Positions 1,328-5,787 of a stretch of 64,000 nucleotides of DNA are shown in pieces (within the stretch, counting starts at the first letter, position 1; each line of letters begins with the position of its first letter). Both the position numbers and the translations under genes were made by a program. This stretch comes from Flavobacterium chryseum (lineage in GTDB: Bacteria > Bacteroidota > Bacteroidia > Flavobacteriales > Flavobacteriaceae), in NCBI RefSeq assembly GCF_004362015.1, contig NZ_SNWW01000006.1:248001-312000 (forward strand). The letters run 5' to 3'. The notes beneath the pieces are model-generated. The model was given only the letters and a program-made list of their open reading frames with translations. It was not told the DNA's origin and made no database searches.

Positions 1328-1369
1328 AAAAAGAGCTAAGCATTTATTTACAAATACTTAGCTCTTTTT
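1328..1369 (-). terminator. Intrinsic terminator of the stressosome operon
   Basis: Perfect 13-nt arms (1328-1340 and 1357-1369, core AGAGCTAAG/CTTAGCTCT) are flanked by A and T runs on both sides. It lies about 105 nt past the histidine kinase stop codon and could work in both directions. Confidence 0.75.
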
Positions 1370-1473: not shown

Positions 1474-3090
1474 CTATTTTTTTGGAAAATATACCCAAAA
1501 AGTGGTTCCTTCTCCGGGCTTGCTTGTAAAATTAATTGCTCCATTATGATTTTCAATAATTCGTCGGCACAAGGCAAGTCCAATACCATTACCACCATAC
1601 TGATCACGTTCGTGCAGCCTTTGGAACATATCAAATATACGGCCTGAATATTGGCTGTCCATACCAATACCATTATCAGCAATCGAAATGACTTCATACT
1701 TACCTGAAGCGGCAAGTTCATCTTCCGGACCGGCATTGTTTGCTGCTATTGTTACGCTTGGCTGATCTGAATTAAACTTTAATGCATTGTTGAGCAAATT
1801 ATAAAATAATTGGCGAAGCTGTGTACTAAGTCCTTTAACTTCCGGTAGTGTTTTTACATTAATCAGAGCGTTTTTTTCTTCAATTACCATACTTAAATCA
1901 TCTAAAATTTCAGATATGGTATCATTAAGATCAACTTCTTCAAAATGATGGTCTTTAATGTCTATTCTTGAATAATTAAGAACGTCGCTAATCAAATGCG
2001 ATAATCTTCCGGCAGCCATTGTAATTTTATCGAAATAATATTCTTTTTTCTGCTCTTCTGAAAGACTTATTCCTGCGCGCGAAAGCATGATCATAATTTT
2101 GCGCAATGGTTCCTGAAGGTCATGACTGGCAATGTAGGCAAATTGCTCCAGTTCTTTATTTTTAAAAAGTAATTTTGAATTTGCGCCTTCTAATTCCTGC
2201 TGAATCAATTTCAATTCAGAATTATCTTTAAGGGTATCAACCATTATTTTTTGGGCATCAATATCCACAAAATAAATGAGCCAACTGCTAAAAGTTCCGT
2301 CTTCTGCTTTGTTTGGGATAATTGAAACTAAATGCCAAATATAATTTTGTCCGTTTTTGATTCTGGCTTCTCCTAAAAATTCAGTTTTATTTGATTTTGC
2401 CCGATTCCATCCTTCTAAAATTGTATTTACATCATAGTGATGAATAAAAGTAATTAAAGATTTTTTGTCAAAAACAAGAAGTGGCGATTGTAGATGTTTT
2501 TCTAATGAATCATTTTTCAGAAGAACATTATTGCGTTCGTTTATGATACAAATTAAAACCGGAATTGTATTAGATAATTGTCGGTATCTGTTTTCGCTCT
2601 CGCCCAGTTTTTCTGAAAGTGCAATGAGCTCAATATTTTTCTTTCTGATTTCGTCATAAGGCGATAAAGGCGGCTCATATTTGAAATAATCCAGTAAACC
2701 TTTTATTTTCGTTTCTGAAAGAAGTCCGGGTGACGTAACCAAATGACTTATTGTTGTAACCGATTTGTTATTGGAATAAGTATATTTTATGTTGCCGGAA
2801 ATTTTTTCCGCATAACTAAAAGCTTCCGGATTGCAACTTTTCAGATCAACAGAATCAGTTAGAATAGCGACAATTTCTTTTTGTGTTGCTTTGATAATAT
2901 TTATGCCAAGTACCAATAAAGAGTTTTTTCCTTTTGCAATAGAACATCTTGCGATTTCAGATACAGCGGTCGAAAATCTGGTTTGGGCAGAAGATGGCAT
3001 CCCACACATTTCAGCAATTTTCATAGATCGCTTATGGGCTAATATTAAGTCCATTTCGTTATCAAGATTGATTTTTACGATCTCTTTCAT
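1474..3090 (-). CDS. Histidine kinase with degenerate RsbT-like N-terminus and PAS domain
   Basis: The protein has 538 residues, no signal peptide and no membrane segment. Residues 1-140 resemble the RsbT/SpoIIAB ATPase fold, but the N-box reads E45-IAR-C49 where RsbT has E-LVR-N, and no DNG motif follows. Residues 165-290 look like a PAS domain and 290-320 like a linking coiled coil. HisKA follows with H323 in ASHDLQEPLRK. A full HATPase_c domain has LLNNALKFN, DNGIGMD (from 472) and GGNGIGLAL. The gene is last in the stressosome operon, 5 nt after the phosphatase gene, with a terminator behind it. It is probably the output kinase of the module. No response regulator is adjacent, so the target is unknown. 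Confidence 0.85.
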   Translation of the reverse strand: MKEIVKINLDNEMDLILAHKRSMKIAEMCGMPSSAQTRFSTAVSEIARCSIAKGKNSLLVLGINIIKATQKEIVAILTDSVDLKSCNPEAFSYAEKISGNIKYTYSNNKSVTTISHLVTSPGLLSETKIKGLLDYFKYEPPLSPYDEIRKKNIELIALSEKLGESENRYRQLSNTIPVLICIINERNNVLLKNDSLEKHLQSPLLVFDKKSLITFIHHYDVNTILEGWNRAKSNKTEFLGEARIKNGQNYIWHLVSIIPNKAEDGTFSSWLIYFVDIDAQKIMVDTLKDNSELKLIQQELEGANSKLLFKNKELEQFAYIASHDLQEPLRKIMIMLSRAGISLSEEQKKEYYFDKITMAAGRLSHLISDVLNYSRIDIKDHHFEEVDLNDTISEILDDLSMVIEEKNALINVKTLPEVKGLSTQLRQLFYNLLNNALKFNSDQPSVTIAANNAGPEDELAASGKYEVISIADNGIGMDSQYSGRIFDMFQRLHERDQYGGNGIGLALCRRIIENHNGAINFTSKPGEGTTFWVYFPKK

Positions 3091-3095
3091 AACAC

Positions 3096-4109
3096 TTAAA
3101 TTATTTTAGCAACGAGAATTGTAGCATCGTCAGTACCTCTTATATTTTCTTTTAATATAGAAGATGCAATAATACCAGAATTTTGTTTTAATATCGAAGT
3201 AAAATCATTTAAATTCCATCTTGTACGCAATCCATCGCTATGCATAACCATAATCTGATGTTTTTTGTACGGAAGAATTGTACTGTTTAAAGTACGGGGA
3301 ATATTATGACCTATAATTCCGTTATACGGAGTATAGGTTTTGTTTTCTAAACCATTATGAATGCGTGTATTTATATTACCAACGCCACAGATATTCCAGG
3401 TTTCTTTATCATAATCTACAGACGCGATTGTTGCAACAAGTCCCCTGCTCTTTTTTACACTGCCGTGAATTTCCCTTATAATTTCTGAAGGTTCAGTCTC
3501 TACAGTTTGTTTAAAAGCTTTAATTGCTAGTTTTACGGCTTCACTGGCGTGTTCACCATGGCCTAAACCATCGCCTACAAATATCTGAAAACCTTTTCTG
3601 GAATTTTTAATATGATACCCGTCTCCACAAACTTTCTCGCCCGGATAATTAATACCAATTCCAGCGTAACTGAATCCGTTTTTTAATTCAGGAAAAACAA
3701 TATCAGATTTTTCGCAAATTTTGATATATTGCACGGTTCCCCAATTTTTCATTGAATAAATCTGAAAATCGTTACTTAGTCTTTTAATAGTTCCTAATCC
3801 GTGTCCGAGTGTGTTTGATGAAGAATAACCATCATTCATCATTCTTGTCACATTTTCAATTCCTATTCCATTATCAAGACAATAAATCTCAATTTCATTA
3901 AATCCTTCATTAAAATGAGCTCTGTACAGCAGCTCACCTCCATTTGCATATTTAATGAGATTTGAAGTTAATTCTGCAATTATGATATCTGTTTCGGCAG
4001 CTCTGTGTGGTGTAAAACCCAACTGAAGCGCCAGATTGTGTATTTCTCTTTTTATAAAAGCGATCAGACTTCGATCGTCAATTTTATAACTGGAAAAAGT
4101 ATTATCCAT
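3096..4109 (-). CDS. Fused anti-sigma-type ATPase and SpoIIE/RsbX-like PP2C phosphatase
   Basis: The protein has 337 residues in two parts. Residues 1-135 form an RsbT-like HATPase with intact N-box (AELTSNLIKYA) and G1 box (DNGIGIE). Residues 145-337 form a SpoIIE-type PP2C domain with the metal-binding aspartates in GDGYHIK, GDGLGHG, HSDGL and TDDATIL. In Bacillus, RsbX removes phosphates from RsbR and RsbS and resets the stressosome; this protein fills that slot but also carries a switch-kinase-like domain. The start overlaps the end of rsbT by 8 nt, so translation is probably coupled. Cytoplasmic. Domain calls are strong; feedback phosphatase activity is inferred from family and position. 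Confidence 0.87.
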   Translation of the reverse strand: MDNTFSSYKIDDRSLIAFIKREIHNLALQLGFTPHRAAETDIIIAELTSNLIKYANGGELLYRAHFNEGFNEIEIYCLDNGIGIENVTRMMNDGYSSSNTLGHGLGTIKRLSNDFQIYSMKNWGTVQYIKICEKSDIVFPELKNGFSYAGIGINYPGEKVCGDGYHIKNSRKGFQIFVGDGLGHGEHASEAVKLAIKAFKQTVETEPSEIIREIHGSVKKSRGLVATIASVDYDKETWNICGVGNINTRIHNGLENKTYTPYNGIIGHNIPRTLNSTILPYKKHQIMVMHSDGLRTRWNLNDFTSILKQNSGIIASSILKENIRGTDDATILVAKII

Positions 4110-4518
4110 TTTTCCATTTTATTATAGTTACGGTAGTTCCGCTTCCTAGTTTTGTTTTAATATCAAATTCATTTACAAGCCTTTTTGTTCCGGGTAAACC
4201 CAAACCTAAGCTTTTTCCTGTGCTGTATCCGTCTTTCATTGCCAGGGATACATCTGCAATTCCGGGGCCGTTATCTATAAAAGTAACGCGCACGCCATTA
4301 TCCCGACCATTACTGACAGACTCTATTATAACTTTTCCGCCTCCGCCATATTTTAAAAGATTACGTACAAGTTCACTCGTAGCGGTAATAAGTTTGGTTT
4401 GGTTCAGAATACTCATTCCTATCTTTACCCCATACTCCTTCACACGATTACGCAACGGAACCACATCTTGCTCTTTTAGTATAAAAGCTTCTTCTTTATT
4501 ATTCGTTATCGTCGTCAT
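4102..4518 (-). CDS. rsbT: Stressosome switch kinase RsbT
   Basis: The protein has 138 residues from the ATG at 4518-4516 (MTTITNNKEEAF). A longer reading from 4584 would run deep into rsbS, so the inner start is preferred; it still overlaps rsbS by 20 nt. It is a GHKL-type serine/threonine kinase with N-box E49-LVR-N53, G1 box D82-NGPGI and G2 region SLGLGLPGTKRLV. In the Bacillus model RsbT phosphorylates RsbS and RsbR in the stressosome, is released, and activates a downstream partner. No RsbU is encoded here, so the released kinase probably engages the operon's own fusion phosphatase or histidine kinase. That target is inference. Confidence 0.93.
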   Translation of the reverse strand: MTTITNNKEEAFILKEQDVVPLRNRVKEYGVKIGMSILNQTKLITATSELVRNLLKYGGGGKVIIESVSNGRDNGVRVTFIDNGPGIADVSLAMKDGYSTGKSLGLGLPGTKRLVNEFDIKTKLGSGTTVTIIKWKNG

Positions 4519-4897
4519 AAAGCTGCTCTTCATTATAGCTAGTATGCATTTTTGAGCGCAGTAAATCCATGCCTTTCTCAACATTCAGGGCACTAATAAC
4601 TCCATTTAAGGACAAACCAAGTTCAACAAGTGTAATAGCAACCGCAGGCTGCATTCCTACAACAACAGTTTGTGCATCCATTATTTTAGACATTACTGCA
4701 ATGTTTCCTAGTATACGACCCATAAATGAATCTATAATCGAAACTGCCGATATATCAATTAACACACCTTTTGAACTATGTTTACTTATGGTATTTATCA
4801 AGTCTGATTCCAGGTTTTCTGCCAGCTGATCATACAAATCTACTTGTATGGTTACCAACAAAAAATCTCCCATTTTGAGTATAGGAATTCTATCCAT
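4499..4897 (-). CDS. rsbS: Stressosome scaffold protein RsbS (STAS domain)
   Basis: The protein has 132 residues, essentially one STAS domain. The N-terminus (IPILKMGDFLLVTIQVDL) is typical of RsbS. The phospho-acceptor serine is kept: S57 in IIDSFMG, equivalent to Ser59 of Bacillus RsbS by alignment from memory. GMQPAVAITLVELG is a second hallmark. RsbS forms the core of the stressosome with RsbR and holds RsbT until phosphorylated. It lies 20 nt after rsbR and its last codons overlap rsbT. Its C-terminus ends in an acidic tail (YDDDNE). Confidence 0.95.
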   Translation of the reverse strand: MDRIPILKMGDFLLVTIQVDLYDQLAENLESDLINTISKHSSKGVLIDISAVSIIDSFMGRILGNIAVMSKIMDAQTVVVGMQPAVAITLVELGLSLNGVISALNVEKGMDLLRSKMHTSYNEEQLYDDDNE

Positions 4898-4917
4898 ATT
4901 TATAAAATCTTATTCGG

Positions 4918-5787
4918 TTATCTTTTTTTAACTACAGTTAACTGAAGCATATCGAAGGCTGTTTGAAGAGCGCTTGCCAATGAAGCTTTAGTAATAATAC
5001 CCGTAAGATCTATTCCTAAATGTACTACTGTTTGTGCAATTTCAGGGCGAATACCACTAATAATACATTCTGCTCCCATTAAACGTGTTGCACTAACCGT
5101 TTTGATAAGATGCTGTGCTACAAGTGAATCTACTGCAGGTACACCCGAAATATCAAGTATTGCAATCGAACTTCCTGTATCAACAATTTGCTGTAAAAGA
5201 TTTTCCATTACAACCTGTGTTCTTGAACTGTCTAATGTTCCAATAATTGGTAAGGCTACAATACCATCCCAAACTGCAATAACAGGTGTAGAAATTTCAC
5301 TAATTTCATCTACTTGTCTTGATATAACATCTTCTCTTCCTCTCATGAAAGCCTCAAATGTTAATATCATCAAATTGTCTATAATAGCATTCAATCTCAA
5401 ATTTGCAGTAAAAAGTTCTGCTCTGTCTACAATTAATTCTGAAAGAATTTGTGAAGAAGCTTCTTTGAATGTTACAAGATACTGAGCATTTTCTCTTGGA
5501 GAAAACCCACGTTTACCTCTTGAAGATGAGATTCCTACAATAAGATCCTCGACTTTTTCAGACTCATTAGAGTTTTCATACTTGCCATCTGATATCGCTA
5601 ATGCACTTAAAAATAATGAAGCAAATTCTTTTGATTCCTCTTCTTCTACTGCACCATCTCCAGATCCGCTTTCTAAAAGAAGTTGTGACCAAATCGTTAG
5701 TAATTTATTTTCGTTTTCCTTTAATTTTCCCAGGAAGTTGTTTTGCATGTGGATTTTATTTGAATTTTCGTAAACAAATATAGACAT
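4918..5787 (-). CDS. rsbR: Stressosome sensor protein RsbR
   Basis: The protein has 289 residues. The N-terminal 150 residues are helical and likely form the globin-like RsbR sensor domain. Residues 165-280 form a STAS domain. Of the two phospho-sites of Bacillus RsbRA, the first is a serine here (VDS, S221) where Bacillus has threonine, and the second is threonine (T253 in IRPEIAQTV). RsbR builds the outer turrets of the stressosome and receives the signal. The ATG at 5787 is used; a second Met at codon 14 (MQNNFLGK) is an alternative start. First gene of a five-gene minus-strand operon. Confidence 0.92.
   Translation of the reverse strand: MSIFVYENSNKIHMQNNFLGKLKENENKLLTIWSQLLLESGSGDGAVEEEESKEFASLFLSALAISDGKYENSNESEKVEDLIVGISSSRGKRGFSPRENAQYLVTFKEASSQILSELIVDRAELFTANLRLNAIIDNLMILTFEAFMRGREDVISRQVDEISEISTPVIAVWDGIVALPIIGTLDSSRTQVVMENLLQQIVDTGSSIAILDISGVPAVDSLVAQHLIKTVSATRLMGAECIISGIRPEIAQTVVHLGIDLTGIITKASLASALQTAFDMLQLTVVKKR

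Follow-up and report, generated by a model that had tools for sequence, protein, structure and literature searches.

The DNA analyzed here, termed the window, is a 64,000-nucleotide stretch of the 5.0-Mb Flavobacterium chryseum genome (contig NZ_SNWW01000006.1, positions 248,001 to 312,000; G000:C6:248001-312000 in our labels). It carries five genes, all on the minus strand, that by Pfam encode RsbR, RsbS, RsbT, a phosphatase fusion and a histidine kinase. The first four resemble a stressosome module, and the N-terminal domain of the kinase appears to be a degenerate copy of RsbT. The features are as follows.

5775-5782, minus strand: TATATTTG, a possible -7 promoter element read from the sequence, 34 nucleotides (nt) before ATG 5748
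4918-5748, minus strand: rsbR, 276 amino acids from ATG 5748; a longer open reading frame (ORF) of 289 amino acids reaches 5787
4499-4897, minus strand: rsbS, 132 amino acids, a single STAS domain (Pfam)
4102-4518, minus strand: rsbT, 138 amino acids, a GHKL switch kinase (HATPase_c) with N, DxGxG and GxG motifs intact
3096-4109, minus strand: rsbT-rsbX fusion, 337 amino acids, Pfam HATPase_c_2 (below cut-off) plus SpoIIE-type PP2C
2731-3090, minus strand: kinase residues 1-120, degenerate RsbT-like (GHKL) domain, from fold, motifs and tree
2596-2730, minus strand: kinase residues 121-165, conserved junction ending in a long predicted helix (SPYDEIRKKNIELIALSEKL), from model and alignment
2161-2595, minus strand: kinase residues 166-310, PAS-like region (Pfam, below cut-off)
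1474-2160, minus strand: kinase residues 311-538, HisKA plus HATPase_c (Pfam), with the H-box ASHDLQEPLRK read from the sequence
1328-1369, minus strand: terminator-like hairpin, a 19-pair stem with a T tail (read as 1369-1328)

The genes are closely packed. A gap of 20 nt separates rsbR from rsbS, rsbS overlaps rsbT by 20 nt (with the rsbT start set at ATG 4518), rsbT overlaps the phosphatase gene by 8 nt, and 5 nt lie between the phosphatase and kinase genes. An earlier note, made from the sequence alone, had described five such genes with these domains, overlapping or nearly so and closed by one terminator. That description is borne out by the common strand, by junctions of -20 to +20 nt and by the hairpin.

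The product of rsbR consists of an RsbRD_N sensor domain (Pfam 1.9e-9) followed by a STAS domain (Pfam 1e-13), and it matches RsbR entries in the PDB, with a residue alignment to 9o3z at 6.4e-30. Residues S221 and T253 (numbering of the 289-residue ORF) align with what we take to be the two phospho-threonine positions of Bacillus subtilis-type RsbR. In RsbS, S57 aligns with a serine position that is alanine in PDB 9o4r, and the pair D56-S57 is invariant across 14 diverse sequences. A phmmer search of RsbT against the PDB gave no match at 0.001. In the fusion protein, a GHKL domain of the RsbT-like kind, its ATP motifs intact (about 3720-4109), is joined to an RsbX/SpoIIE-type PP2C phosphatase (about 3099-3677) that matches PDB RsbX 3w40 at 1.7e-15. 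By sequence, all parts of an RsbR-RsbS-RsbT-RsbX (RSTX) stressosome module are present, including an intact RsbT and an RsbX-type feedback phosphatase. A Vibrio-type haem-globin stressosome was also considered for this locus, and was dropped because the RsbR sensor matches RsbRD_N. RsbT-like domains occur three times in the operon: as free RsbT, on the phosphatase and on the kinase.

The kinase-borne domain was not recognized in the earlier note. Kinase residues 1-165 have no Pfam assignment, none of the 25 NCBIfam matches listed (of 77) extends N-terminal of residue 140, and a sequence search of residues 1-166 against the PDB returned nothing credible (best 0.0074, over 26 residues of a CRISPR subunit). 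An AlphaFold2 model, built from an alignment of 31 sequences that all lack the ATP motifs, has a predicted local distance difference test score (pLDDT) of 88.2 and a predicted template modeling score (pTM) of 0.72, and its strands and helices follow the GHKL order. The top Foldseek matches of this model are UsfX (1.4e-5), RsbW and SpoIIAB. VIA-align places RsbW 6m37 first (Z 14.6, root-mean-square deviation 1.8, 107 residues aligned), followed by UsfX and SpoIIAB (Z 12-13.4), SiaB (10.5) and LvrC (9.9), with DesK and other histidine-kinase ATPase domains at Z 8.4 or below. In relatives with intact motifs, Pfam HATPase_c_2 is found above cut-off at the kinase N-terminus in all five kinases scanned (1.4e-8 to 4.7e-17). 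This match, at the same kinase position in relatives with the same operon, is support of a sequence kind that is independent of the model. Kinase residues 1-120 are thus predicted to fold as a GHKL domain of the RsbW/SpoIIAB/RsbT type.

The ATP site of this domain is degraded, with C49 in place of the N-box asparagine and neither the G-loop glycines (DxGxG) nor the GxG motif present. An intact RsbT-like domain is found at this position in relatives from other phyla. The motif counts and the tree (149 columns, midpoint-rooted) are based on 163 domains, a reduced set from which most Flavobacterium copies, free RsbT domains shorter than 100 residues and the twice-fetched genome loci L228 and L239-L241 had been left out. 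Many of these domains were detected with an intact-RsbT model, a bias toward intact ones. All six ATP-site positions are intact in 67/67 free RsbT-like proteins and 54/54 phosphatase domains, compared with 16 of the 42 kinase domains. Two further kinase domains, from Ramlibacter, miss one glycine, and 24 are degenerate: 20 representatives from Bacteroidia share one clade (support 0.99), and the other four, L204, L230, L237 and L238, fall elsewhere in the tree. Except for L237 and L238, the kinase N-domains form a single clade (40/42; support 0.974) that is separate from free RsbT and phosphatase domains and, by record titles, spans four phyla, with Bacteroidota, Pseudomonadota, Geobacter and Gemmatimonas members. 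Given this grouping, the split into three kinds of RsbT-like domain seems ancient, and the ATP motifs seem to have been lost afterward. Six free RsbT-like genes cluster with the phosphatase domains and perhaps represent detached versions of them.

What the degenerate domain has kept is as distinctive as what it has lost. Among columns conserved in RsbT and in intact kinase domains, it retains D14, T37, T41, A42, S44, E45, R48, D79 and L97, and it has lost N49, G57, five loop or strand glycines, an isoleucine, F101 and T110. Six of the retained residues (D14, T37, T41, A42, S44 and R48), which lie in helices 1-2 and are of the RsbT type, are present in 20/20 degenerate representatives and are weakly conserved or different in the phosphatase domain. 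In this pattern, therefore, the kinase domain resembles RsbT and not the phosphatase domain. Intact kinase domains located via RsbS are not uniform at these positions: T37 is replaced by V in L147 and by I in both L205 and L206, A42 is changed in L205, and S44 is changed in L223. Across the 31 sequences, which come from several genera, mean column identity is 90% in helix 1 (residues 12-28) and 87% in junction residues 138-165, compared with just 53% in strands 4-5. In keeping with constraint, the nonsynonymous divergence (dN) of the N-domain is below that of the PAS region and of the kinase core in 5/5 species pairs examined (14 pairs are possible).

The gene order is strongly conserved. Among 150 Flavobacterium genomes, the N-terminal 166 residues of the kinase match 14, and RsbS matches the same 14. 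The earlier note had called for a search for the five-gene order in flavobacterial genomes, and the order R-S-T-X-kinase is found in 15/15 genus loci (one genome has two), with RsbS and the N-domain kinase adjacent throughout. Because the order is identical in every locus, it is not due to chance. This co-occurrence favors that note's proposal that the stressosome feeds a kinase, an idea that had already been published. A wider contig scan with the kinase N-domain, partly overlapping the genomes of the genus and phylum sets, yielded 64 loci. The five genes stand in order in 58 of them: L064-L115 (52 loci), L117-L121 (titled Ferruginibacter, Terrimonas and Chitinophagales) and L122 (a metagenome-assembled genome, or MAG, titled Geobacter). 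As for the remainder, in L123 (a MAG titled Gemmatimonas) R, S, T and X precede a kinase truncated where the contig stops, L116 is truncated at its start, L126 matched through RsbT itself, and L124, L125 and L127 (Ramlibacter) have the kinase with no rsbRST alongside, RsbS lying elsewhere in the genomes of L124 and L127. Two five-gene operons occur in each of four genomes (L057/L058 in G091, L080/L102, L092/L103, and L117/L119 in G541); the duplicates are about 21 kb apart in G091 and on different contigs in the other three.

An RsbS profile is positive in 14/395 genomes of the phylum. The earlier note had held that relatives with rsbRST and no attached kinase gene would speak against it. All eight RsbS-positive genomes of the class have a kinase bearing the N-domain. 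Such relatives do exist farther out: no kinase match was obtained in the stretches fetched from G185 and G208 (phylum, outside the class) or from some Pseudomonadota RsbS loci, for example G557 and G591. Of the other four RsbS-positive genomes beyond the class, G335 encodes an intact RsbT-like kinase two genes past the phosphatase, and the kinases in G229, G182 and G347 belong to the RsbU_N kind; Pfam was applied to those of G229 and G347.

The kind of kinase was also compared with the form of the phosphatase. We hand-sorted 49 loci (14 from the phylum, 24 from Pseudomonadota and 11 in 10 genomes of the phylum of G543), located through RsbS except in the pre-chosen centre genomes G000, G545 and G543. 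All 21 loci with an RsbT-like kinase have an RsbT-fused phosphatase, compared with 17 of 28 other loci, the remaining 11 having a single-domain phosphatase (Fisher test 0.001, shared ancestry ignored). The assignments of L235 as fused and of the L223 kinase as a kinase were made by eye, and L238 was scored as fused on an RsbT-like match in the absence of a phosphatase match. Pfam RsbU_N is above cut-off in four of five kinases scanned (L148, L151, L218 and L219, near single-domain RsbX) and gave no match in L220, the fifth candidate; the RsbU_N model used for the locus scan was built from three sequences.

Several other arrangements were seen among these loci. In L224-L227 (Pseudomonadota), R and S are followed by an RsbT-RsbX fusion with no separate rsbT match, and RsbT apparently exists there only in fused form. 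A second free rsbT-like gene precedes single-domain rsbX in L218, L220, L233 and L241, as if the RsbT-like domain of the phosphatase had split off. At L223:5483-6721, the fused RsbX is followed by an RsbT-like domain joined to a kinase that by eye resembles the HWE/HisKA_2 type, a different kinase family.

On this basis of gene order, domain identities, ATP-motif loss and constraint, drawn from sequence, tree and predicted fold, we propose that the operon encodes an RSTX-type stressosome whose output is a histidine kinase held and released through STAS docking of its N-terminal pseudo-RsbT, a reading to which we give an even chance. All three RsbT-family domains would dock on the same STAS surface of RsbS and RsbR. 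Free RsbT would act as the writer, phosphorylating RsbS S57 and RsbR, with the RsbT-RsbX fusion as the eraser and the RsbT-like-kinase fusion as the reader. At rest, the kinase would be held on the STAS lattice. Under stress, phosphorylation of STAS sites, RsbS S57 among them, would weaken docking and free the captive pseudo-RsbT, whose conserved helix would then pair into a coiled coil and switch the HisKA/HATPase core. The phosphate acceptor would be a response regulator encoded elsewhere, perhaps one with a single domain. The coiled-coil step is borrowed from Bacillus, in which, according to the parts of the published account available to us, RsbT orders a coiled coil in the RsbU linker (PMC12143880). 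We regard the more general form of this scheme as somewhat less secure: three paralogous RsbT domains would compete for the same STAS sites, kinases would be cargo of the lattice, and a Ser/Thr phospho-switch would gate His-Asp signaling via the captive pseudo-RsbT.

Several points weigh against this proposal. The proposed docking on RsbS derives from conserved residues. E45 and D79 of the kinase-domain ATP site are retained, and nucleotide binding is thus not strictly excluded. The wider scan used the peptides INLDNEM and QTRF[SA]TAVS, which makes conservation there partly a matter of construction; however, none of the retained residues varies in the 15 genus loci or in L144-L146, the latter located through RsbS instead. 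In the dN comparison, synonymous divergence is saturated. When genus sequences alone were used, the degenerate domain matched RsbT weakly at the profile level (50 columns, probability 32%, P 4.8e-4), and the RsbT-like identity was settled afterward by farther relatives and the fold. The fusion test, in addition to disregarding shared ancestry, was sorted by hand, includes the preselected centre genomes and leans on weak domain matches in L204, L237 and L238. In at least nine loci (L208-L212, L214, L215, L217 and L229), a kinase right behind fused RsbX has no RsbT-like domain; the domain is therefore dispensable for the association there. By eye, the linker sequence of L208 and L214 is much like that of L122 and L204. 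Finally, no response regulator gene was found within the operon or next door.

Among other explanations, the kinase N-domain might pair with free RsbT as a GHKL-GHKL heterodimer, replacing RsbU_N as the receiver, so that released RsbT activates the kinase in trans. This mechanism agrees with that of the earlier note, in which RsbT once released acts on the kinase. RsbU_N is a known RsbT receiver, and its presence on kinases near single-domain RsbX makes the N-terminal slot look like a slot for RsbT input. SpoIIAB/RsbW-type proteins, moreover, are dimers. However, what the degenerate domain retains are residues typical of RsbT itself, not of a receiver. Because the kinase carries its own RsbT-like domain, release of RsbT is probably not the whole story, and we consider activation in trans unlikely, although it survives as a rival.

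The whereabouts of the response regulator bear on a further alternative. The genome has 78 receiver matches, and the nearest on the contig is about 39 kb away, in a 1368-residue frame, in keeping with the statement of the earlier note that no regulator is adjacent. Elsewhere, Emticicia (L108, L113 and L114) and two Bacteroidota MAGs (L112 and L115) have a same-strand receiver gene ahead of rsbR, at a distance of 11-28 nt, and a receiver gene follows the kinase at 7 nt in L112 and at 17 nt in L121. Within Flavobacterium, receivers follow the kinase at 278 nt in L052 and 246 nt in L061. The Emticicia receivers resemble several receivers of this genome to much the same degree. The L052 receiver is 73% identical to G000:C2:276187, but each of these two sits in its own receiver-kinase-receiver cassette; the L061 receiver is closest (49%) to another receiver of this genome. 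Such a cassette (L312, at G000:C2:271500-281500, and L313) adjoins the stressosome operon in G054 and is on a different contig here. At E 1e-34, the C2 receiver is found in 9 of the 14 genus genomes that have the operon and in 7 of the 136 that lack it (Fisher test 2e-7, uncorrected for ancestry and genome size, and with candidates scored in part in many genomes). G000:C2:276187 is only a candidate for the partner of the kinase.

Signal flow could instead be reversed: the kinase would serve as an input, or as a client of the scaffold, its PAS region and pseudo-RsbT filling STAS sites and thereby tuning RsbT, and phosphotransfer would be secondary. The PAS-like region fits this possibility, as do the lack of a receiver gene in the operon and the mere scatter of receivers near other Flavobacterium loci. 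However, the kinase has both HisKA, with its phospho-acceptor histidine, and HATPase_c, and in many relatives outside Flavobacterium receivers are fused to the kinase or encoded by the next genes; phosphotransfer therefore belongs to the system, and we judge reversed flow improbable. That the neighborhood is conserved with no mechanistic coupling and the N-domain is a decayed relic, as its lost ATP motifs and its absence from some relatives might suggest, is very improbable given its low dN relative to the kinase core in all five pairs, the identity of helix 1 across genera and the presence of the association in four phyla, by record titles.

With respect to transcription, the earlier note had rsbR begin at 5787. 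The second ATG, at 5748, is probably the start instead, because TATATTTG (5782-5775) falls within the longer frame, 34 nt ahead of that ATG. Its pattern, TAnnTTTG, is presumably the Bacteroidetes -7 consensus. Among 15 relatives printed, the motif occurs 27-36 nt before the called rsbR start in five, at -45 in one and at about -86 in three, and is not seen upstream of rsbR in six. It is present somewhere in 51 of 72 upstream stretches, some genomes being represented twice. Matches to a sigma-70-type promoter number 26, level with shuffled sequence (mean 23).

The earlier note had also placed the kinase where Bacillus has its sigma-B pathway. Homologues of RsbR, RsbS, RsbT and RsbX are shared with the Bacillus RsbR/S/T-RsbU-RsbV-RsbW-SigB cascade, whereas the output gene here encodes a histidine kinase. 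Genome-wide, no RsbU was found (the sole SpoIIE-family match is the phosphatase of the operon) and no RsbV (the three STAS matches, at E 0.001, are RsbR, RsbS and a 525-residue frame), which agrees with that placement. As for RsbW, HATPase_c_2 matches beyond the operon phosphatase sit in frames of at least 339 residues, but the same search missed the RsbT of the operon and may have missed an RsbW too.

RSTX loci with two-component kinase outputs have been described, and in Vibrio vulnificus a mutant in the kinase gene exists (PMC9237108, PMC10014275). As far as the available parts of these accounts go, the V. vulnificus rsbRSTX locus with VvD1/VvD2 shares with ours an RSTX stressosome, the lack of a SigB cascade (here as judged by RsbU and RsbV) and a sensor kinase just downstream. 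The two differ in that RsbR of V. vulnificus has a haem-globin sensor and RsbX of the globin-type loci is single-domain, whereas here the sensor is of the RsbRD_N type by Pfam and RsbX is fused to an RsbT-like domain. The kinase here carries a degenerate RsbT-like domain of its own. In the same parts, some outputs have RsbU_N, no interaction of RsbT with VvD1 was found (PMC9237108, PMC10014275), and no RsbU_N domain was found in the majority of downstream signaling proteins considered (PMC9237108). A CheY-like gene adjoins a Vibrio rsbRST, according to a source likewise available in part (PMC4976288). RsbU_N-kinases by rsbT (PMC12143880 and PMC9237108, in their available parts; also L148, L151, L218 and L219) share the likely kinase output and an RsbT-related N-terminal slot. 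They receive RsbT in trans, whereas here an RsbT-family domain itself fills the slot. Fusions of RsbW-like domains to phosphatase or two-component parts are known from SypE (RsbW-like kinase, REC and PP2C) and TciR (REC and RsbW-like); in the accessible portion of that account, a term search finds no mention of the stressosome, and no RsbT-like-HisKA fusion is included (PMC12826045).

The idea of a stressosome feeding a kinase is thus already known. The open-licence literature, covered mostly through titles, the beginnings of abstracts and selected passages, showed no fusion of an RsbT-like domain to a histidine kinase, which is a weak negative. Within those limits, neither the kinase-borne pseudo-RsbT nor the three-domain logic seems to have been reported before. 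For Gram-negative stressosomes that lack SigB or RsbU, an RsbT-family domain on the kinase offers a concrete, testable link to the output. The kinases form a natural series, from those with RsbU_N, through those with neither domain, to RsbT-kinases and pseudo-RsbT-kinases, which is useful for learning how partner switching and two-component signaling became joined. In this organism, a disabled copy of RsbT on the kinase may be the means by which the sensor complex holds and releases it.

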